This document shows, piece by piece, positions 9,344-52,782 of a stretch of DNA of 64,000 bases. This DNA comes from Pyrobaculum sp. 3827-6 (GTDB taxonomy: Archaea > Thermoproteota > Thermoprotei > Thermoproteales > Thermoproteaceae): contig NZ_JAOTQN010000001.1 of assembly GCF_025641885.1 (NCBI RefSeq), forward strand, positions 682,001 through 746,000, read 5' to 3'. The notes beneath the pieces were generated by a model. The model saw nothing but the letters and a program-made list of their open reading frames with translations. It was not told the origin of the DNA and did no database searches. Both the position numbers and the translations under genes were made by a program. Position 1 is the first letter of the stretch, and every line of letters begins with the position of its first letter.

Positions 9344-10194
9344 ACATAGGCGTTGTACAAGAGGCGCTTAAAGGCGCCGCGCCCATACTCCTCGCAACCC
9401 TCGGAGCCGTCATAGGCCAGAGAGCCGGGGTCCTCAACCTAGGCCTCGAAGGCGTGGTGTACCTATCAGCCGCCGTCGCCGCCGCCGCAGGCCCCCCCTG
9501 GGGATACCCACTCGCCGTGGCCGTCGGAACCCTCTACAACCTCCTGTACTACCTCCTGGTCAACGACCTCGCGCTCAACCAGATACTGATGGGATTCGCC
9601 TTCACCATGATGGCGTATGGAGTGGGATCGCAGATTGCACGGCCGGCCGTGGGAAAACCCATAGAGAAGCCGTTAGTCCAGGGGGTGGAGATTTACCTAG
9701 CCGCGGTGCTCGTCGCCGTGGCTCTACACCTCCTGCTGAGGACCAGGCTAGGCGTGGCGATAAAGGCCTCCGGAGACGATCCCGCCTCCCTCGACTTAAT
9801 GGGCGTCGACGTGTACAGAATTAGGAAAATCGCAGGCGCGCTGGAGGGCGCGCTAGCCTCATCCGCCGGGGCCTACCTCGTGTTGATCTACTACGGAAGC
9901 TGGTCAGATCAGCTCGTGATGGGCTGGGGCACACTCGCAGTAGTCACAGCCATGATATCGCTCTGGAGCCCCCTACTAGCCGCGGGCGCCTCCATAATCC
10001 CCTCGCTCTTCATATCACTAGCCTACACCCTACAGAGACTAACAGAGGCATCTCCACACCTCCTCAACACCGTCCCATACCTAGCCTCGATAGCCGTGCT
10101 GGTGCTAGCCCAGCTGGCGGTGAGAAAGACGCGGCTAAGAGCCCTGGCGCCCAGATGGCTCGCCCGGCCCTACATCCGCGAAGAAAGAACGTAG
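9334..10194 (+). CDS. ABC permease, BMP/ribose type (second)
   Basis: 286 aa permease of the YufQ type, with the family motif GVLNLGLEG near residue 33 and a run of hydrophobic helices. I used ATG 9334 (MAVDIGVVQ), which overlaps the previous gene by 10 nt. The open frame extends further upstream in an unrelated, arginine/proline-rich translation that is a shadow of the first permease. It is the last gene of the BMP operon. A 21-bp stretch at its 3' end (gacgcggctaagagccctgg, about 10130) is repeated with two changes just after the stop (about 10219). Confidence 0.88.
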   Translation: MAVDIGVVQEALKGAAPILLATLGAVIGQRAGVLNLGLEGVVYLSAAVAAAAGPPWGYPLAVAVGTLYNLLYYLLVNDLALNQILMGFAFTMMAYGVGSQIARPAVGKPIEKPLVQGVEIYLAAVLVAVALHLLLRTRLGVAIKASGDDPASLDLMGVDVYRIRKIAGALEGALASSAGAYLVLIYYGSWSDQLVMGWGTLAVVTAMISLWSPLLAAGASIIPSLFISLAYTLQRLTEASPHLLNTVPYLASIAVLVLAQLAVRKTRLRALAPRWLARPYIREERT

Positions 10195-44567: not shown

Positions 44568-44631
44568 AGAAAGGCGCCGGGGGTGGGATTTGAACCCACG
44601 CCCCCGAACGGAGACGGGCTTAGCAGGCTCG
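44568..44631. repeat. attL: partial tRNA-Ser(GCT), direct repeat copy 1
   Basis: 64-bp copy of the tRNA-Ser(GCT) 3' part plus 7 bp beyond its 3' end, matching 52691-52754 with only two mismatches (44612 a for g; 44629 t for c). It spans anticodon stem, anticodon, variable arm, T arm and acceptor 3' strand but stops there, so it is not a functional tRNA. Together with the other copy it marks the ends of the integrated element. Confidence 0.9.
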
Positions 44632-44644
44632 TAGAGTTAAGAAA

Positions 44645-45916
44645 ATGGGCGCAATACTTAAAAACGTACATCAATCTGGATCTATGTTTGTCAACCCGTA
44701 TTGGGGGAAGCTTACAGATGAGCAGAGGATCGGCGTGGTTAGGTGCCTCCGCGAGACCGTCGGCCTCGCGGTGTCTGACATTGCCAAGATGGCGGGGGTC
44801 TCCCCGGCGGCGGTGGTCCAGTGGCTGAGCGGCAGGTCCACGCCTACCCCCGAGAAGCTCCAGAGAATGCACGAGGCGGACCCCGCCACTGTTGAGAAGT
44901 GCCTCCCAGCGCCCCCCATATCTAGGCTTGAGGTCGATCTGGCTCTTGAGACCTTGGCGAGGGCTGTGAGGGACAAGGCTCTGCGTGAATACATCGCGGC
45001 GCGGCTCTCCCAGCTCTTCCCCGGCCTCAAGCCGGAGGTGGCCTACAGCGTCTCCGCCGAGGATCTAAACCTCTTCAAGGAGAAGCTCCTGGCTGAGGGC
45101 GTCACGAAAGACACGGTCCACAAATACCTGCGCTACCTGTCCAAATTCCTGCAACACGTCGGCTGGGTGCTGACGCCGGAGACGCTCCAGCACGCCTACA
45201 CCTACGTGGAGAGCAGGAGGATTAAGCGCGACACTATACTGGCGCTGAAGCGGTTCATCAACACCGTGGTGAAGGTGAAGGAGCCGCAGATTGCCCCAAT
45301 CCTCTACGACGCCATAAAGACTATCCAGGACAGGCCGGCAAAGCGGAACGGGCGCCTACCCACAATTGAAGAGGTTAGGCGCGTCTGGGAGGAGGCTAAC
45401 CGGATATCTCCATGCGCCGCCGCCGTGTGGGGAATAATGGCGGAGACCGGCGTGAGGTTCGACCACCTCCACCGGGCAAGCATAACAGGCCTCCAACTGG
45501 ACAGGCGGAGGCTTCTGCTGGGAGAAATTGAGGGGCCAAAGCGGCAACCTCTCCTCTTCTTGACTGAGGGCGCTGTTAGGTACCTCAAAGAGGCGTACCT
45601 GCCGTGGCGCGAGAAGTTTCTACACAGGCTCCAGATGAACACCGATAAGCTGTTTCCGTGTACCGAGGAGAAGCTGTATGAACACCTCAAGCGGGCGAGG
45701 GAGGCGGCCGGTTTGCCGTGGCTTGAGCCCCGGCTCCTGCGGAAGTTCCACGCCCAGTGGCTGTTAGACAGGAGCGTCGACGTCTCGGACATCGCCGCCC
45801 TGCAGGGCAGAGCCCTGCCGTCAAGCCTCACCGTCACGATAGAGCACTACGTATACGACTATGAGAGGCGTCTACGCGCCGTCTTTGACCAACACACGCC
45901 CAGGGTTTTTCCATAA
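44645..45916 (+). CDS. Tyrosine recombinase / integrase with N-terminal HTH
   Basis: 423 aa. Residues 40-65 form a helix-turn-helix (VSDIAKMAGVSPAAVVQWL), then a SAM-like core-binding domain (about 135-230), then the catalytic domain: box I Arg271 in ETGVRFDHLH, Arg366 and His369 in LLRKFHAQWL, and nucleophile Tyr402 (EHYVYDYE). All expected residues are present, so it looks active. It recombines the tRNA-Ser attachment sites. The gene is intact and starts only 14 bp from attL. It is not split by integration, unlike SSV-type integrases, so the element keeps a whole gene, as in the pNOB8-type arrangement. An internal ATG at 44684 is another possible start. Confidence 0.9.
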   Translation: MGAILKNVHQSGSMFVNPYWGKLTDEQRIGVVRCLRETVGLAVSDIAKMAGVSPAAVVQWLSGRSTPTPEKLQRMHEADPATVEKCLPAPPISRLEVDLALETLARAVRDKALREYIAARLSQLFPGLKPEVAYSVSAEDLNLFKEKLLAEGVTKDTVHKYLRYLSKFLQHVGWVLTPETLQHAYTYVESRRIKRDTILALKRFINTVVKVKEPQIAPILYDAIKTIQDRPAKRNGRLPTIEEVRRVWEEANRISPCAAAVWGIMAETGVRFDHLHRASITGLQLDRRRLLLGEIEGPKRQPLLFLTEGAVRYLKEAYLPWREKFLHRLQMNTDKLFPCTEEKLYEHLKRAREAAGLPWLEPRLLRKFHAQWLLDRSVDVSDIAALQGRALPSSLTVTIEHYVYDYERRLRAVFDQHTPRVFP

Positions 45917-46229
45917 CCACGTTTCTAATTCAAAAATATTGGAGCGTACCCCCTACACGCTTTCTGCACCAAAGCGTTGCACTTGGATATGCACCAAGCG
46001 TAGTAGTCGTAGTGCACCATATATGCACCTGTATCTGCACCGTCAAAGAGACCATTGAAACATATACAGGTAAAGCTTTATACAAATCTAAACAACCCGG
46101 CGCAGATTATATATTTGACAAAGGCTAGGTGCCGCGGCTGTACCAATCACGCCGTAGTATCCCGTAACACAAACTGATCAGCGCATGTACGTCGGGTAAA
46201 GATTAAATTTTGACGCATCACACGTCAGC
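45917..46229. other. Non-coding region with repeats
   Basis: 313 bp after the integrase with no gene. It contains the TGCACC repeat cluster (see separate entry), then AT-rich sequence with TATA-like stretches (agctttatac near 46074-46083; gattatatatttg near 46106-46118). It is a natural place for a replication origin or for the promoter of the next gene. Confidence 0.5.
45965..46041 (+). repeat. Iteron-like TGCACC cluster, left
   Basis: Six copies of tgcacc (one is tgcact) start at 45965, 45978, 45990, 46013, 46024 and 46036. The steps are 13, 12, 23, 11 and 12 bp, so the copies lie on about the same face of the helix with one position skipped. Such phased repeats are typical of origins and operators bound by a replication or repressor protein. 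Confidence 0.65.
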
Positions 46230-46652
46230 ATGTACCACGCAACCCACCCACCCAATCATACATCGTCAGTGAGAGAAAAAACACCCCCGAATAAAAACAT
46301 TACAGCCGGACACGACGCCGCCCACCTGTTTGCGCTACCCGGCGTAACGGTCGTGCCGATCTACAGACTTACCAAGAGTAGTAACAGCTACTACGTCCCA
46401 GTAAGGCGGGAACGGGTTGAGGGGCCGGTTGAGAGGGGGGACGTTGTCCAGTTGCTAGTTATGGCGCCGCATGGGGGCTATCCAGTTACTGTGGACGGGC
46501 GTGTATTGAGAATATACAAGAACGTGGTGCAGGTATATATCCAGTACAGGCAGTACAAGCCGCTCATTGACCAAGCCATCGCTGGGGGCGGCTACCTCTA
46601 TCTGATAAAAGTAATAAGAATACCGAGGCTGGCGGCGGAGGGAGGCGTCTAA
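46230..46652 (+). CDS. Unknown element protein (140 aa)
   Basis: 140 aa. The first 40 residues are Pro/Asn/His-rich and look disordered. A beta-rich domain follows (VTVVPIYRLTKSSNSYYVPV; GDVVQLLVMAPHGGYPVTVD), with a basic-aromatic strand (VLRIYKNVVQVYIQYRQYK) and a short helical end. It resembles a small OB- or SH3-like nucleic-acid-binding fold, but no family was recognised. An internal start is possible. It ends 9 nt before the replication-like gene, so the two are probably one operon. Confidence 0.55.
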   Translation: MYHATHPPNHTSSVREKTPPNKNITAGHDAAHLFALPGVTVVPIYRLTKSSNSYYVPVRRERVEGPVERGDVVQLLVMAPHGGYPVTVDGRVLRIYKNVVQVYIQYRQYKPLIDQAIAGGGYLYLIKVIRIPRLAAEGGV

Positions 46653-46661
46653 CTGGCGCCT

Positions 46662-48803
46662 ATGGCTGGGGTCCCGGCGGCGCCTCCCCCCAGTGGTAGT
46701 GCTGCGGGGGATAAAAAACTTTGCAGATGTGAGAGGTTGGGCGACTTCCCCCTCCAGATTAGATGCGTGTCTGGCGACGGCGTTGAGTTAGTGCTTGAGC
46801 GGATCAACAAGTGGCCGAGCCGGTGGCTGGCGAGGGCTGGGGACGACGTGAGGTACTTTACCGACGTCTACACCAACGCTTTCCTAGAATACGCCGCTCA
46901 CCGCGGCTTTGACAAGTGGTGTATCGCAAGGGAGCTCGACAAGATTGTGTCGCCCCCCATGAGGCATGTGTCAAGCCGCCAGCCAGGACGTAAGTACCAC
47001 CCAGTCCGGGATTATCTGCCAGGAGTTGGCCCAGTTCTACTAGCGGGCTACGTCGATGACATGGGGACTCCGCGCTTCGCCGTGCTTGTAAAACAAGGTG
47101 GGCGGCTCCGCGCGTTGGACCCCTCGACGCCCCTACAAGACGAGGTGGGTGAGGTGATCTACCCAGCCAAGAGGATACCGGAGCGGCTTGACGAAATGAT
47201 GGCTTACTTTCCCCACCTCCCGTTGTTAAAGTCTTTGTACCACAGCGGCGAGGTAAATATTCCAAGGCTTATCAGAGAGGTTGAGCAGGTCCTCAAGAGC
47301 CACATCACGCTCCCCGCCGATAAATACTACACCGCCGTGGCCACGTACATCGTCGCCTCCCACTTTTTCCCTATATTCAAACACTTCACTGTATTACGGA
47401 TCGGTAAGCCGGGTTTCAACGCTGGTGGGACAACAACACTAAAGTTAATTTGCGCCCTCTTGCCCGGCGGGTTGCTGGTCGTCGATCCCAGTGACGCCAC
47501 TTACTACAACTTCGCCGACAAGTTTAGACTCTCTTTGTGTATTGATGAAGTGAAGTCTGAGTGGGGCCGTGAGAAAGTCCAGAAGCTCGCCTACTACATC
47601 GACGCCAGCTTTGACAGAGATCCGATAATCCCCAGGATGATGAGGGGTGGTGAACGCCCCGAGTTGTTCAAGCCATTTGGACCCCGTGTGATTGTTGACC
47701 CCCAAGCCTTGGTCACCAGTTATTCAAACACGCGGCGTCAGCTCGTAATACCTGTATTCCCGGCGAAACACCGCAAAGAAATACCATCGATAGAGGAGTA
47801 CCGCGAGCGGTATTTTGAACTCTGGCACAAACTACATGTAGCGTTCATGCTTTACGCCGACGAGGTGAGGGAGCGGTACGCGAATCTAGACAAGCTATAC
47901 GCCGATCTCGACGGCTCGGTTCTCCAGGTATACGGGCCCATATTGGCGGTTGCAAGCTTTGACGCTGAGATCAGCGCGGCGGTGCTTCACGTGATTAAGG
48001 AGTCTGTTGAAGCCAGTGAGACACTTAAACTCCAAGCGGATCCGACGAAACTCGTTTTACACAAAATATACACGCTCCTCTACGACGAAGCTGAAAAGGT
48101 GTGCCGCCTTGAGACTGAGGCGGAGGACCCACGCAAGCACATCGCCGCGTGGCGCCTTGACAAGCTTAGGGACGAGCTCCGTGAGGAGCTTACCGAGATT
48201 CATCAAATTGATGTGAGAGGCCGCGAGAAGAGACAGTGGCGGCGTTTGAAGGAGGACAACTTAGACGCAATACTGGGGCGGCAGACGTTCCCCGCTTTGC
48301 TGAGACAATACTTAGCGGACTACGTCAAGCCAGATAGCAGGCGCTACCTCTGGCTGGAATTTCACAATGTAGAGGAGCTGTGGGGCGCCTTGAGGAGGTT
48401 GGCGGAGGCCCTCGGCATCGACTTCGTCGCACCGTGTCAGCTTGAGTCACTGATTACAAGAGAGGAGTTGCGTAAATGCGCAAACGAGCTTGCAGAGGAG
48501 ACCCACGAAGATCCCTCCAAGGTGTATGAGGAGCTTCGGAGCGATCCAGGGCGCAGAGTGAAATTGTGTATACAGAGGACGGAGAAGCCTAAAGAGCCCC
48601 CCGCAGAGTCTGTGCAAGACGCTTCTGAGTCTGAGCAAGTCGTTGAGCAGGGACAACGGGGCGAGCTCCCGGGAGCTGTGCATGTTGATATCAAAGTTAA
48701 CGTGGGGAGCGGTGAAGGGGTGGAGGCGCAGAGGCGTGGAGGCGGCTGTCCCCCCGGCTGGGTCTTTGAGGAGAACGTGAAGCGTTGTGTGAGGTCATGG
48801 TAG
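46662..48803 (+). CDS. Putative replication protein/helicase with degenerate P-loop
   Basis: 713 aa. N-terminal domain (about 20-95) with CRC (residues 21-23) and Cys35, a possible zinc site. Central ATPase-like region (about 200-440): loop GKPGFNAGGTTTL (248-260) has the Gly-rich shape of Walker A but no Lys before Thr; Walker B-like LSLCIDE ends with Asp295-Glu296; SYSNTRRQ (353-360) looks like a sensor plus arginine finger, as in SF3/primase-associated helicases. The C-terminal helical domain (about 457-605) ends in a low-complexity tail and a CPPGW-like Cys motif. It precedes the primase gene in the same direction, so a replication role is likely. ATP binding is doubtful without Lys. Confidence 0.6.
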   Translation: MAGVPAAPPPSGSAAGDKKLCRCERLGDFPLQIRCVSGDGVELVLERINKWPSRWLARAGDDVRYFTDVYTNAFLEYAAHRGFDKWCIARELDKIVSPPMRHVSSRQPGRKYHPVRDYLPGVGPVLLAGYVDDMGTPRFAVLVKQGGRLRALDPSTPLQDEVGEVIYPAKRIPERLDEMMAYFPHLPLLKSLYHSGEVNIPRLIREVEQVLKSHITLPADKYYTAVATYIVASHFFPIFKHFTVLRIGKPGFNAGGTTTLKLICALLPGGLLVVDPSDATYYNFADKFRLSLCIDEVKSEWGREKVQKLAYYIDASFDRDPIIPRMMRGGERPELFKPFGPRVIVDPQALVTSYSNTRRQLVIPVFPAKHRKEIPSIEEYRERYFELWHKLHVAFMLYADEVRERYANLDKLYADLDGSVLQVYGPILAVASFDAEISAAVLHVIKESVEASETLKLQADPTKLVLHKIYTLLYDEAEKVCRLETEAEDPRKHIAAWRLDKLRDELREELTEIHQIDVRGREKRQWRRLKEDNLDAILGRQTFPALLRQYLADYVKPDSRRYLWLEFHNVEELWGALRRLAEALGIDFVAPCQLESLITREELRKCANELAEETHEDPSKVYEELRSDPGRRVKLCIQRTEKPKEPPAESVQDASESEQVVEQGQRGELPGAVHVDIKVNVGSGEGVEAQRRGGGCPPGWVFEENVKRCVRSW

Positions 48804-49222
48804 TGGACGTGGAGAAGTTCAAGACGTGGCTCAAGCGCTACGCTTGTCATGTGGTGAGGAGCGGCGCAGGCGTGTTTTCGGCCGGCTTCCTGCGGCTCGC
48901 CCTCGACTTTGCACACATCAGCGGCGTCGACTACACCACGCCGGAGTTTCAGAGATTTCTGCGGGAGCTTTGGGAAGCTGTGCAGAGGCTGGAGGCCGAG
49001 GGGTATTTGGCGCTCACAAACGCCACCTGCGCCCCAAGGTACCTAGAGAAGGTTGAGGGTCTCGCCGGTGTGGACTGCGGTCTGCCGCCCAGCGGGCCCT
49101 ACTCCGCGGTTGTCGTCATACCGGCGGCGGCGCTGAGGTGTGAGGAGGCCCAGGAGGCGGCTGTAGGCGGGAGAAAGGCGGAGAGGCGCGTCGGCAGGAC
49201 AAAGCTCACCGAGTACATGTGA
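48797..49222 (+). CDS. Small wHTH-like element protein
   Basis: 141 aa from ATG 48797, overlapping the previous gene's stop by 7 nt. The mid part (FLRLALDFAHISGVDYTTPE; LWEAVQRLEAEGYLALTN) reads as a helical winged-helix domain with a recognition helix. The C-terminal 30 residues are basic and Glu-rich, perhaps a flexible tail. Its place between replication protein and primase suggests a replication or copy-control factor. No family was recognised. Confidence 0.5.
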   Translation: MVVDVEKFKTWLKRYACHVVRSGAGVFSAGFLRLALDFAHISGVDYTTPEFQRFLRELWEAVQRLEAEGYLALTNATCAPRYLEKVEGLAGVDCGLPPSGPYSAVVVIPAAALRCEEAQEAAVGGRKAERRVGRTKLTEYM

Positions 49223-50433
49223 TGTCTGAGTTCTACACCAGGTACATCCGCGGCCACCTAGAGGAGGAGTTTGTGAAGACGTACGCCGCCGCGCCGTGCC
49301 GGGAGGTGGGCGTGCCCCACAGAGCGGGCCACGTCTGCGCCGGCTCCGAGCTCCTCGACTACGTGAGGCGTTACAACAGGGGGAGGAGCCCAAAGCCGGT
49401 GTTCGTCTCCCTGGCGGCCACGGACGGCTCCAGCTACCGGGCCCTTGACAGGGTGTGTATAGACGTGGACATCGCCCCGGAGGAGGAGAGGTTGAGGAGG
49501 TTCCTCGCGGAGCTGAGGCCCAGGGCGGCTAAGCTGAAGGACTACCTTTGGCTTGAGTTCACCGGCTACAAGGGCTACCGCATCTGCGTCTTTCTACAAC
49601 AGCTAATCGGGCTGGGCGACTCCGCGGCTCCCGCATACCTCCGGGGCTACCAGAGGTGGCTTGCCGAGAAGCTGAGGGTCCCCCAGGACCCCCAGACGGT
49701 GGGCGACGTGAAGAGGCTCTTCAGAGCGCCGTATACGATAAACGAGAAGAGCGGCAGGCAGGCCGTTCCCCTCCACCCAGAGACGTTTAAGAGGCTCAGC
49801 CCCTCCGAGGCTCTCGAAATCTTCCTCGACAGAAAACTCCTGTGGCTCGGCTACAGAGCGCTTGCGTACGCGGAGGAGGTCAAGGTGGAGGGGGCGCCCA
49901 CACGCCGGGTGCGGCGGGGGAGGGGCACCGCTCCCACAGCTGTGGGAGACGCGTGTCTCCACAACGAGGCGCTTGGCAGGGTCTGCGCCCCTGCGGAGCT
50001 CGCTGGGTATGGGTGGGTCAAGTACCTGGTGGGCAGGGGGGTGTACCTCCAAGACGCGAGGCACACGGCGATATGGACCGCGGTGGGCTGGGCTGTGGCC
50101 AACGGCTTAATCACGCTGGGGGAGGCCGAGGCGTGGCTGAGGGCCGCGCTTGAGAGGCACCCAGATCCGGAGGGCGAGCCCCCCGAGAGCTACCTCAAGA
50201 TGCTACGCTACTTTGTACAGTACAGGCAGAGGCGCGCCGTGCCGCCCCCCACCTGGCGGACCATCGCCACCTTCAAGACAGGCGAGGGCAGAGACGCGGC
50301 TCCCTGGACAAGACACCTAGCTGTCAACGTCCTCTACGCCTTGTACAAGGCGGGGGTTGTTAAGGTGGAGAGGGCGGAGGCGCTTGAGGAGATGTGGCGG
50401 GAGGAGCTGGGCTACAAGCCGGGAAATGTTTAA
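49222..50433 (+). CDS. Archaeo-eukaryotic primase (AEP) family protein
   Basis: 403 aa from ATG 49222 (a GTG one codon earlier is possible). Motif I is VCIDVDIAP with the metal-binding DxD; motif II region is EFTGYKGYRICVF; motif III is DVKRLFRAPYTINEKSG, where RLxRxPYTxNxKSG is typical of AEP primases from archaeal plasmids. The C-terminal third (about 240-400) is helical and may be a PriCT-like or DNA-binding domain. The enzyme makes primers or short DNA, and probably starts element replication. It carries the first of two palindromes inside the gene. Confidence 0.82.
   Translation: MSEFYTRYIRGHLEEEFVKTYAAAPCREVGVPHRAGHVCAGSELLDYVRRYNRGRSPKPVFVSLAATDGSSYRALDRVCIDVDIAPEEERLRRFLAELRPRAAKLKDYLWLEFTGYKGYRICVFLQQLIGLGDSAAPAYLRGYQRWLAEKLRVPQDPQTVGDVKRLFRAPYTINEKSGRQAVPLHPETFKRLSPSEALEIFLDRKLLWLGYRALAYAEEVKVEGAPTRRVRRGRGTAPTAVGDACLHNEALGRVCAPAELAGYGWVKYLVGRGVYLQDARHTAIWTAVGWAVANGLITLGEAEAWLRAALERHPDPEGEPPESYLKMLRYFVQYRQRRAVPPPTWRTIATFKTGEGRDAAPWTRHLAVNVLYALYKAGVVKVERAEALEEMWREELGYKPGNV
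49924..49946. repeat. Palindrome/inverted repeat copy 1
   Basis: Contains the perfect 18-bp palindrome ctcccacagctgtgggag (49931-49948) inside the primase gene. The 23-bp segment 49924-49946 (ggcaccgctcccacagctgt plus three Gs) is repeated exactly, in inverted orientation, at 50535-50557. Confidence 0.75.
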
Positions 50434-50657
50434 CTTAGGCGGCATCTACAAGCGGGAGAAGGGCCTCTACTGCATACAGCCGAAATAACCCCCGGCGCGC
50501 AGACGCCGCCAGCCGGGGCGGGGCACCCGCCGTCCCCACAGCTGTGGGAGCGGTGCCGGGCGTGGCCGGGCGTGGAGCGTGCGCCGGAAGGGGGCCTTTT
50601 GCGCCAAATGCGCCTTTATCCCGATAGGCTTAAATAGCCGGTGGCCGGGTTTTCGGC
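50434..50657. other. Non-coding region between primase and serine recombinase
   Basis: 224 bp, GC-rich, with an extended imperfect palindrome around the second 23-bp copy (about 50522-50557). There is also a short tandem repeat ggccgggcgtggccgggcgt (about 50558-50577), and gcgccaaatgcgcc near 50600. TATA-like ttaaata (about 50630-50636) lies about 25 nt before the recombinase ATG. A possible origin, recombination site (res) or regulatory site. Confidence 0.45.
50535..50557. repeat. Palindrome/inverted repeat copy 2
   Basis: Exact inverse copy of 49924-49946, centred on cccacagctgtggg (50535-50548). Here the flanks ggcacc and ggtgcc make the palindrome longer (about 50522-50557), which could form a cruciform. 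It lies about 100 bp before the serine recombinase gene. Confidence 0.7.
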
Positions 50658-51308
50658 ATGGACGTCGTGGCTTATGTAAGAGTCTCCCAGGAGGAGGAGC
50701 GGCCGGAGAACCAAGAGTTTGCCATCTACCAATGGGCCGCTAAACAAGGCCACCGGATTGTGGAGGTGTACCGAGACGTGGGCGTCTCCGGCGCCACATC
50801 TCCGCAGGAGAGGCCGGGGTGGAGGCAGGTCTTGGAGAGCTTGGCAAACGGCAGGGCCCAGGGGGTTGTTGTGTACGCCTTGGACAGAGTTGCGAGGTCT
50901 CTGTGGGAGCTGGCGGCGGTGTACAAGCAATTTAGTGAAAAGGGGTGGGCGCTGTACTCTGTGCGCGAGGAGTGGCTCACCTCAGTTGATCCAAAGGTAC
51001 GCGATCTCCTGGTAGCCGTCTTGGGCTGGGCCGGGGAGATGGAGCGTGAATTCATTAGAGAGAGGACCAGGGAGGCGCTGAGGAGGCTTAGGGCTGAGGG
51101 GAAGAGGCTGGGGAGGCCGCCTAAGTGGAGCCCGCAGGTCAAGGCGAGGATTGTGGACCTGGTGAGGCGGGGGTTAACGCTTAGGGAGGCTGTGAAGCTT
51201 GTAGGCATTGGGTATAGAACCGCGGTTAGGTACCTGTCGAGGGATCCGGACTATCTGGAGGCGGTGAGGGTGGCTAGGCTGACTGGGGCGAGGCGTGCAA
51301 CAAAATAA
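50658..51308 (+). CDS. Serine recombinase (resolvase/invertase type)
   Basis: 216 aa. The catalytic domain (about 1-140) starts VVAYVRVSQEEE with nucleophile Ser10. The conserved YALDRVARSLWEL supplies the active-site Asp/Arg pair, and EMEREFIRERTREAL is the long E helix. The C-terminal HTH is GLTLREAVKLVGIGYRTAVR, preceded by the family's GRPPKWS linker. It is complete and looks active. A role in dimer resolution, inversion or transposition of the element is likely. Having both a tyrosine integrase and a serine recombinase in one small element is notable. Confidence 0.88.
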   Translation: MDVVAYVRVSQEEERPENQEFAIYQWAAKQGHRIVEVYRDVGVSGATSPQERPGWRQVLESLANGRAQGVVVYALDRVARSLWELAAVYKQFSEKGWALYSVREEWLTSVDPKVRDLLVAVLGWAGEMEREFIRERTREALRRLRAEGKRLGRPPKWSPQVKARIVDLVRRGLTLREAVKLVGIGYRTAVRYLSRDPDYLEAVRVARLTGARRATK

Positions 51309-51313
51309 CTCTT

Positions 51314-52228
51314 TCAAGAGCGGCGTAGCTCGCCCAGCGACTCCACGGAGCACGGCGGCTTGAATTCAACTCCGAGTGCCGCCGCCAGCCTCTCAAGCCC
51401 CCGCCACAGCTCCTCGGCATTTCTAAATTCGAGATACAGGCGGCGGCTTGAGTCGCTCCTAATAAACTCCGGCAGGTGTCTGCGCATCAAGTCGGCGAAG
51501 CCGAGGCGCCCAAGGAAAGGCCCCAAATCCGCCTCCAGGCCGCGGAGGGCCTCCCCGGCCCTTCTGCCGACGTCTCTCCTCAGCTTCTCAAAGCTCCTTG
51601 TGTAGACGGCCCCCCTCGGGTCCTCAAACCCCCCGCCTCTGCAACGCCGCTCAGCCTCTTCGTAGAGCAGTGAGTACAACAGCCTAAGGACTACGCGGGA
51701 GGGGTCGGCTCTTGCGAATACCAGGAGGCGGCTCAGCTCCGCCGCTATACACGACGCGCTGAAGCCGCGGGCCTCGGCGTAGTCCAGAAACACATTGCTA
51801 CGGAGATCTCTAAAAAACCTAACAGAGCCCCCGGCCTCGGCCAGCCACCTGCCAGAGCCGCCGTAGATCTTCTCCAGCAGAAGCTCAGCCCCTCCCTCGG
51901 CGACGCAACGCACCTTCAGCGGCACCTCCTGCAACACTTCACATCTGCAGCTGCCCCCAGTTGTAAACATATTCTTGAAGAGGCTGTAGAGCTCGTAGAC
52001 ATCTACCGTGAGCTCGTCAAACTCTAGACTCTCCAATTTTTTCGCGATTATTCTGACTAAGCCAATGGGTGGGGGCCAGCGCGGCGTCTCAAAGACGTCG
52101 TTGCCGACCCGTATCAAGTAGCGGTTGCCATCTCTTTCAACTCTGACGTATCTCCAGTACCAGGGGGCGCACCGCCCCTCCGCGTCTCGGTACGGGCAGT
52201 CAAACGTCTCGGTGTTCACCTCCCACAC
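51314..52228 (-). CDS. Core-less relative of the element replication protein
   Basis: 304 aa. Residues about 94-170 align with residues 21-95 of the 713-aa protein: CRCEVLQEVPLKVRCV against CRCERLGDFPLQIRCV, and FLDYAEARGF against FLEYAAHRGF. Residues about 174-298 align with about 459-595: LLYSLLYEEAERRC against KIYTLLYDEAEKVC, and LEFRNAEELWRGLERLAAAL against LEFHNVEELWGALRRLAEAL. The roughly 360 residues in between, including the ATPase core, are absent and the two ends join directly. The N-terminal 90 residues are unrelated. It is convergent with the recombinase gene. It might bind the same DNA or partner as the longer protein and act as regulator. Confidence 0.75.
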   Translation of the reverse strand: MWEVNTETFDCPYRDAEGRCAPWYWRYVRVERDGNRYLIRVGNDVFETPRWPPPIGLVRIIAKKLESLEFDELTVDVYELYSLFKNMFTTGGSCRCEVLQEVPLKVRCVAEGGAELLLEKIYGGSGRWLAEAGGSVRFFRDLRSNVFLDYAEARGFSASCIAAELSRLLVFARADPSRVVLRLLYSLLYEEAERRCRGGGFEDPRGAVYTRSFEKLRRDVGRRAGEALRGLEADLGPFLGRLGFADLMRRHLPEFIRSDSSRRLYLEFRNAEELWRGLERLAAALGVEFKPPCSVESLGELRRS

Positions 52229-52690
52229 AATATGTAGTAGAGACGTGGTAATTTAAACCTGCGCCGCATGCGCACAGCAATGCACCGCCGGATCCACCCA
52301 TTTACAGATATAAAACCGCTTGGCTCTGGTATAGATGATTCTCCAGGGTGATGTCAACATTTCTCAAAATATGCAGAGACATGTACATATGTTGTGCATG
52401 ACAGGTGCAATGCCGAGATACCCAAGGTGCAACGCCGAGGTGCAAACGGCGAAGTGTTCGGGGGAACGCGCAAGCACCACTTTTTTACACCGTAAAGCGC
52501 GGGATCAAAGCGGGGAGTTGATTAAAAACAATTCCGAGTGGACTGACAATTTTAGTGAAAATAGGGCGGGGTTGAAAGCCGTAGAGGTAATTGATTTACA
52601 TTGATGTGTTTGATTCTCGGTTTTAAGCAAGGCTGATTTTCAGTTAAGTAGAGCGCGGCGTCTTGTTAAAAGCGGCGCTTTGCGGAGGGG
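52229..52690. other. Non-coding region with second repeat cluster
   Basis: About 460 bp. It holds the promoter of the core-less gene (aatttaaac at about 52250-52258 is too close on this strand, so the exact box is unsure), a tgcacc at 52281 and three inverse copies (see separate entry). An open frame from 52335 to 52604 has no protein-like features. The rest shows nothing clear. Confidence 0.4.
52404..52444 (-). repeat. Iteron-like TGCACC cluster, right (inverted)
   Basis: Three copies of ggtgca (inverse complement of tgcacc) start at 52404, 52426 and 52439. Each is followed by a (ggtgcaa, i.e. ttgcacc on the minus strand), with steps of 22 and 13 bp. Orientation is opposite to the cluster near the integrase. 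It lies upstream of the core-less gene, whereas the other lies upstream of the operon with the full-length protein. Confidence 0.5.
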
Positions 52691-52754
52691 AGAAAGGCGC
52701 CGGGGGTGGGATTTGAACCCACGCCCCCGAACGGGGACGGGCTTAGCAGGCCCG
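52691..52754. repeat. attR: direct repeat copy 2, inside intact tRNA-Ser(GCT)
   Basis: 64 bp matching attL with two mismatches. The repeat runs from 7 bp outside the tRNA 3' end to position 29 of the tRNA (anticodon stem), so crossover took place within the anticodon-arm-to-3'-end region, usual for archaeal tyrosine integrases. Confidence 0.9.
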
Positions 52755-52782
52755 CGCCTTGGACCAACTCGGCCACCCCGGC
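52698..52782 (-). tRNA. tRNA-Ser(GCT)
   Basis: Minus-strand 85-nt class II tRNA. Acceptor GCCGGGG/CCCCGGC with discriminator G, anticodon arm CGGGC-ctgctaa-GCCCG (anticodon GCT), a long variable arm (tccccgttcgggggc region), T arm GTGGG-ttcaaat-CCCAC. No intron and no encoded CCA. Its 3' part was rebuilt by the integrated element. Confidence 0.95.

Follow-up and report, generated by a model that had tools for sequence, protein, structure and literature searches.

A motorless paralogue of the replication helicase in an integrated Pyrobaculum element and its possible role as a replication brake

An 8.2-kb plasmid-like element integrated in a tRNA-Ser gene of Pyrobaculum sp. 3827-6 contains the genes for two related proteins, a replication helicase of 713 residues (P0001) and a paralogue of 304 residues (P0002) that has lost the motor. 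On alignment, P0002 retains the two domains that border the ATPase, one on its N-terminal side and the winged helix on its C-terminal side, and these are joined directly. An original prediction, made from the letters of the 64-kb window (the whole stretch of DNA analysed here), had proposed two proteins with common end domains in one mobile element, of which only one has the motor, and this is supported; the coordinates and frames of both open reading frames (ORFs) are also as described there. The component parts are of known kinds, and the separate motorless Rep paralogue would be new, as a single instance. It is a reasonable possibility, if short of probable, that P0002 occupies the origin or the primase without unwinding DNA.

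The element is bounded by a 64-nt direct repeat that corresponds to the 3′ part of the tRNA-Ser gene (table 1). An integrase with a helix-turn-helix (HTH), a 140-aa gene, P0001, a 145-aa gene, a primase and a serine recombinase point in one direction, and P0002 faces them. A second such element, termed E2, lies about 52 kb away in the same genome at a tRNA-Gln gene (C1, about 666.8-675.0 kb); its helicase (P0004), primase and integrase are 57%, 71% and about 73% identical to those of the present element. A third related element is found in a Thermoproteaceae MAG (G008 C115, JAJHRB010000040), where the helicase (P0005) has 976 aa and the counterpart of the 140-aa protein, by position, is g129. 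The P0002 gene is absent from E2 and from this G008 element. The primase of E2 matches PF01896 (0.0016) and the G008 homologue matches PF04104 (6.9e-07); this PriL match suggests that the primase of the element is of the PolpTN2 type. Two sister elements (G014; G008 C17) combine the same integrase with an SF1-like helicase and a primase, and have a separate ATPase-less protein (341/386 aa) in the operon.

Table 1. Features of the element, with positions in the window.
Feature	Position	Strand	Evidence or remark
Left end, 64-nt direct repeat of tRNA-Ser 3′ part	44568-44631	.	97% identical to 52691-52754
Tyrosine recombinase (integrase), N-terminal HTH	44645-45916	+	PF01381 4.9e-08, PF16795 2e-05; phrog_5127 1e-20
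Array A, six TGCAC at 11-13 bp (one gap of 23), 76 bp	45965-46040	+	0/200 shuffles reach six
TATA-like TTAAAT, 27 nt before replication-operon ATG	46203-46208	+	
140-aa protein, operon gene 1	46230-46652	+	E2 homologue by tblastn, 31%, E 8e-7
713-aa replication helicase (P0001)	46662-48803	+	
P0001 N-domain (aa 20-96), common to P0002	46719-46949	+	BLASTP
P0001 motor region (aa 97-457), missing in P0002	46950-48032	+	BLASTP, alignment
P0001 C-terminal winged-helix domain (aa 458-600), common to P0002	48033-48461	+	BLASTP, alignment
145-aa protein	48785-49222	+	68% identical in E2
Archaeo-eukaryotic primase, PriS-like with PriL-like C-terminal part	49219-50433	+	PF01896 0.0079
Serine recombinase	50658-51308	+	PF00239 8.6e-34
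304-aa motorless paralogue (P0002), GTG start	51314-52228	-	ORF, BLASTP, model, codon analysis
P0002 winged-helix domain (aa 174-298), homologous to P0001 458-597	51335-51709	-	BLASTP, model, alignment
P0002 N2 domain (aa 94-171), homologous to P0001 N-domain	51716-51949	-	BLASTP, model
P0002 N1 part (about aa 14-90), predicted beta-beta-beta-alpha-alpha	51959-52189	-	AlphaFold2 model; no P0001 sequence match
TATA-like TTTAAAT, 29 nt before P0002 GTG; predicted leaderless-type promoter	52251-52257	-	
Array B, four TGCAC in 51 bp	52394-52444	-	4/200 shuffles reach four
Right end, inside tRNA-Ser (52696-52782, -)	52691-52754	.	

Two collinear BLASTP matches connect the proteins: P0001 20-96 with P0002 94-169 (51% identity, E 1e-22) and P0001 458-597 with P0002 173-298 (41% identity, E 9e-28). 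The intervening motor of about 361 residues (P0001 97-457) has no counterpart in P0002, where the two parts are joined in frame with 3-4 residues between them, as had been foreseen from a gap of roughly 360 residues. The similarity does not extend to the very end of the helicase; P0002 stops at about P0001 residue 604, so that the helicase tail (605-713, about 110 residues) is missing as well. P0002 also begins with 92 residues that have no sequence match in P0001. The description of the short protein as the long one without its core therefore holds for the motor, but not for the added N-terminal part, the lost tail or the descent, which is probably that of an older lineage. In a small tree P0002 branches outside P0001 and P0004 (bootstrap 62), about equidistant from both and on a longer branch (0.66 versus 0.37). 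A simple duplication of P0001 followed by removal of the core is not favoured by this equidistance and outside position, which point, if weakly, to P0002 being an older lineage and not a recent copy of P0001.

An AlphaFold2 model of P0002, built from four sequences (mean pLDDT 73), has a beta-beta-beta-alpha-alpha arrangement at residues 28-87, a beta hairpin followed by the same order at 94-171, and a winged helix at 176-285; the C-terminal part is modelled as helix-strand-three helices-two strands-helix. The idea that N1 is a sequence repeat of N2 was set aside: a score of 17.6 is not convincing where shuffles reach 17.0, and the agreement is one of predicted topology only. Foldseek with the P0002 model returned no match at E <0.001.

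The P0001 core is related to the Rep protein of the Sulfolobus islandicus plasmid pXZ1 (WP_012289543; 24% identity, E 8e-21) and, via pXZ1, also matches ATPases of other archaea. The C-terminal domain common to P0001 and P0002 corresponds, by alignment, to the winged helix behind the ATPase in pXZ1 Rep and in archaeal relatives. The P-loop of P0001 at 47403-47432, GKPGFNAGGTTT (GKPGFNAGGT), has glycine in place of the Walker A lysine; this holds for P0001, P0004, P0005 and pXZ1 Rep alike (4/4, GG[ST]), whereas eight other aligned relatives have GK[ST]. In the same alignment the acidic Walker B stretch is retained. The original prediction had named a P-loop and Walker B, but not this glycine. 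By alignment, the P0001 motor belongs with pXZ1 Rep in a helicase group having a P-loop glycine for lysine. The conservation of this loss from Sulfolobus to Pyrobaculum raises the question of whether ATP hydrolysis by these motors follows the usual mode. Searches of Pfam, PHROGs and NCBIfam gave no match for P0001 or P0002, a PDB sequence search with P0001 gave none, and the AlphaFold2 model of P0001 was unusable (pLDDT 42). A 720-aa helicase relative with a normal GK[ST] P-loop is found in a genome of the same order (G073, L021 7266-9428), where its neighbours are a small protein and a DNA polymerase that is probably of family B.

Known replication proteins share parts of this arrangement. 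pXZ1 Rep resembles P0001 in its core, its P-loop and its C-terminal domain, but is one chain of 1077 aa with the primase fused in front, and no short version of Rep is annotated on the 6970-bp plasmid, unlike in the present element. ORF904 of pRN1 has the domain order primase, SF3 helicase, winged helix (PMC4158269, PMC4234260), and its winged-helix domain is credited with the initial binding to DNA (PMC4234260). A C-terminal winged helix thus follows the ATPase in ORF904 as it does in P0001 by alignment, the P0002 copy being modelled. ORF904 is a single chain that acts with an origin stem-loop, whereas the present element encodes primase and helicase separately. A motorless paralogue is not known to us from pRN1. 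PolpTN2 of the Thermococcus plasmid pTN2 is a PriS-PriL type primase without a fused helicase (PMC3973330). The present primase is probably of this type; the helicase set-up of pTN2 differs, and no counterpart of P0002 has been described there.

From its sequence, the P0002 gene looks like an intact, working gene that is separately promoted by a predicted TATA element. Its 304 codons contain no stop or frameshift, where 0.10 neutral substitutions per site would yield about three stops, and codon positions are of the coding type along the whole length. The layout from TATA to start is also seen at the operon start and at the recombinase gene; TTTAAA occurs 22 times in the 64 kb, so that chance would place it in a given 11-nt slot in about 0.4% of cases. 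No remnants of the core, the tail, g140, g145 or the primase were found beside the gene. In a codon model of selection (three taxa, 207 codons, synonymous sites saturated), omega on the P0002 branch (0.045) did not differ from that of the full-length genes (0.053), and an omega of 1 was worse by 13.8 lnL. This argues against a long neutral phase of P0002, but not against a recent loss of the core; with synonymous sites saturated, the selection signal may mostly predate that loss. The winged helices of P0001, P0005 and pXZ1 agree at 14 positions; P0004 keeps 13 of these and P0002 seven, and four such comparisons gave Fisher p values of 0.007 to 0.15. The changed positions would fit lost motor contacts or lost function alike.

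Occurrence elsewhere is a different matter. Among the collections searched, P0002 is known from one genome only. A search of 19 genomes of the family gave no instance besides its own genome, a core-less profile search of 398 genomes of the phylum gave no second core-less copy, and neither did viral contigs, plasmids and species genomes; the hope of meeting the pair in other genomes was thus disappointed. The ATPase-less 341/386-aa proteins of the sister elements were set aside as homologues of P0002, no homology being detectable at a score of 17.6 where shuffles reach 25.3. The suspicion of a damaged remnant confined to this element is therefore borne out in so far as no second instance was found, and contradicted by the intact ORF. 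That no such system had been described agrees with a literature search, in which no helicase/motorless pair was found for archaeal elements.

How might a motorless paralogue act? P0002 keeps the N-terminal and DNA-binding domains and the motor is gone. If the protein is made, it could occupy a site or a partner that the helicase needs, binding either the DNA recognised by the helicase winged helix or, via its N-domains, the primase. P0002 could not unwind, so origins would fire less and replication would be limited, both for its own element and perhaps for related ones in the same cell, such as E2. As P0002 lacks the ATPase domain through which rings form, it would then be a competitor or a copy-number brake and not a component of the ring. 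The homology of both ends, the winged helix in the retained C-terminal part (alignment and model), the intact ORF with its well-placed TATA, the lack of debris and purifying selection like that on full-length genes all speak for such a brake, and more change at winged-helix positions than in the sister helicases is expected if motor contacts are gone. Against it stand the single genome, the E2 and G008 elements that do without P0002, winged-helix changes that equally fit loss of function, and TGCAC arrays that need no P0002. The origin regulator of the original prediction accordingly gains an intact gene and a predicted promoter, while the regulation would be conjectural and has no second instance.

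In papillomavirus E8^E2 and in the short Rep/Trf forms of bacterial plasmids, a DNA-binding part that lacks the active one is produced alongside the complete protein; these short forms come out of one gene, through splicing or internal starts. P0002 differs in being a separate, diverged gene, and any regulatory function of it would be putative. With more reserve, we suggest that an integrated archaeal plasmid might carry its own brake in this form, as a separate diverged motorless Rep paralogue with doubled N-domains that would control its own and related origins. To our knowledge, self-imposed limits on replication are barely understood for small archaeal plasmids. Here, a pair with and without helicase, with the same end domains and one promoter each, sits in one 8-kb element, and E2 provides a natural control without the short form.

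The most serious competitor, although on balance unlikely, is that P0002 is a functionless relic. On this view the att end of the element would once have housed an additional helicase gene, full-length and from another lineage; a chance deletion that kept the frame would then have left P0002, which has not yet decayed. Its restriction to one genome, the longer tree branch and the changed conserved winged-helix residues agree with this, as do the loss of the C-terminal tail, which falls where P0002 abuts the recombinase gene (5 bp between them), and the position of the E2 helicase operon, which is found to that side of the att-array end where the present element has P0002. Conversely, the ORF is intact with coding-type codon positions throughout, its predicted promoter is well placed, the deletion falls at domain borders, and there is no debris on either side. 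It is less probable still that P0002 is a helper, an adaptor whose two N-domains engage two partners and which ties the separate primase to the element DNA or loads the helicase. Such a bridge is plausible where primase and helicase are separate, these being fused in pRN1 (PMC4158269) and pXZ1, and gains a little from the separate ATPase-less operon proteins of the sister elements (G014, G008 C17); yet those proteins have no detectable homology to P0002, and E2 and the G008 element manage without it. Ring formation in SF3/AAA+ helicases is by the ATPase domain, and its absence from P0002 makes a mixed complex, as suggested in the original prediction, very improbable, whether P0002 is pictured inside the helicase ring or assembled onto it; a mixed hexamer is unlikely for the same reason. 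The common N-domain speaks for such a complex.

The TGCACC repeats that had been proposed for binding tests are real, as six and four copies of TGCAC (table 1). The two arrays flank the att-integrase module and both point outward from it. E2 also has both arrays, placed likewise on either side of its own att-integrase module; since E2 has no P0002, the arrays do not depend on P0002 and were rejected as evidence of its binding. In the whole 2.3-Mb genome the pattern is confined to these two elements with one exception elsewhere, and no such array stands behind the integrase at four further loci of this integrase family. Candidates for the array binder are the integrase HTH, the helicase or another protein.

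Further repeats precede other replication operons and are candidate origin sites: GCGCCGTCAAAAAGCGGCGCC in the G008 element (L014 7800-7920) and TGCAAAACATTTTGCAAAA in E2 (L013 3160-3320, 8260-8300). A perfect 23-nt inverted repeat, GGCACCGCTCCCACAGCTGTGGG, is found at 49924-49946 inside the primase gene and at 50535-50557 behind it, beside the serine recombinase; these are its sole copies in the genome, and no such pair was seen in E2. Inversion between the repeats would shorten the primase to 275 aa without the PriL-like part, a possible switch. In G008, two different replication proteins (L076 5191-5367; P0005 885-943) have a common C-terminal tail (85% over 59 aa), which would represent a tail exchange between otherwise different helicases. 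The displaced 3′ half of tRNA-Gln at E2 (L013 about 9935-10009) carries a 26-nt hairpin insert, CGAGCCCCTCAGGGGCTCG, which the intact tRNA-Gln (L013 1778-1853) does not have, and the integration of E2 seems to have replaced an intron-bearing tRNA-Gln half with an intronless one.
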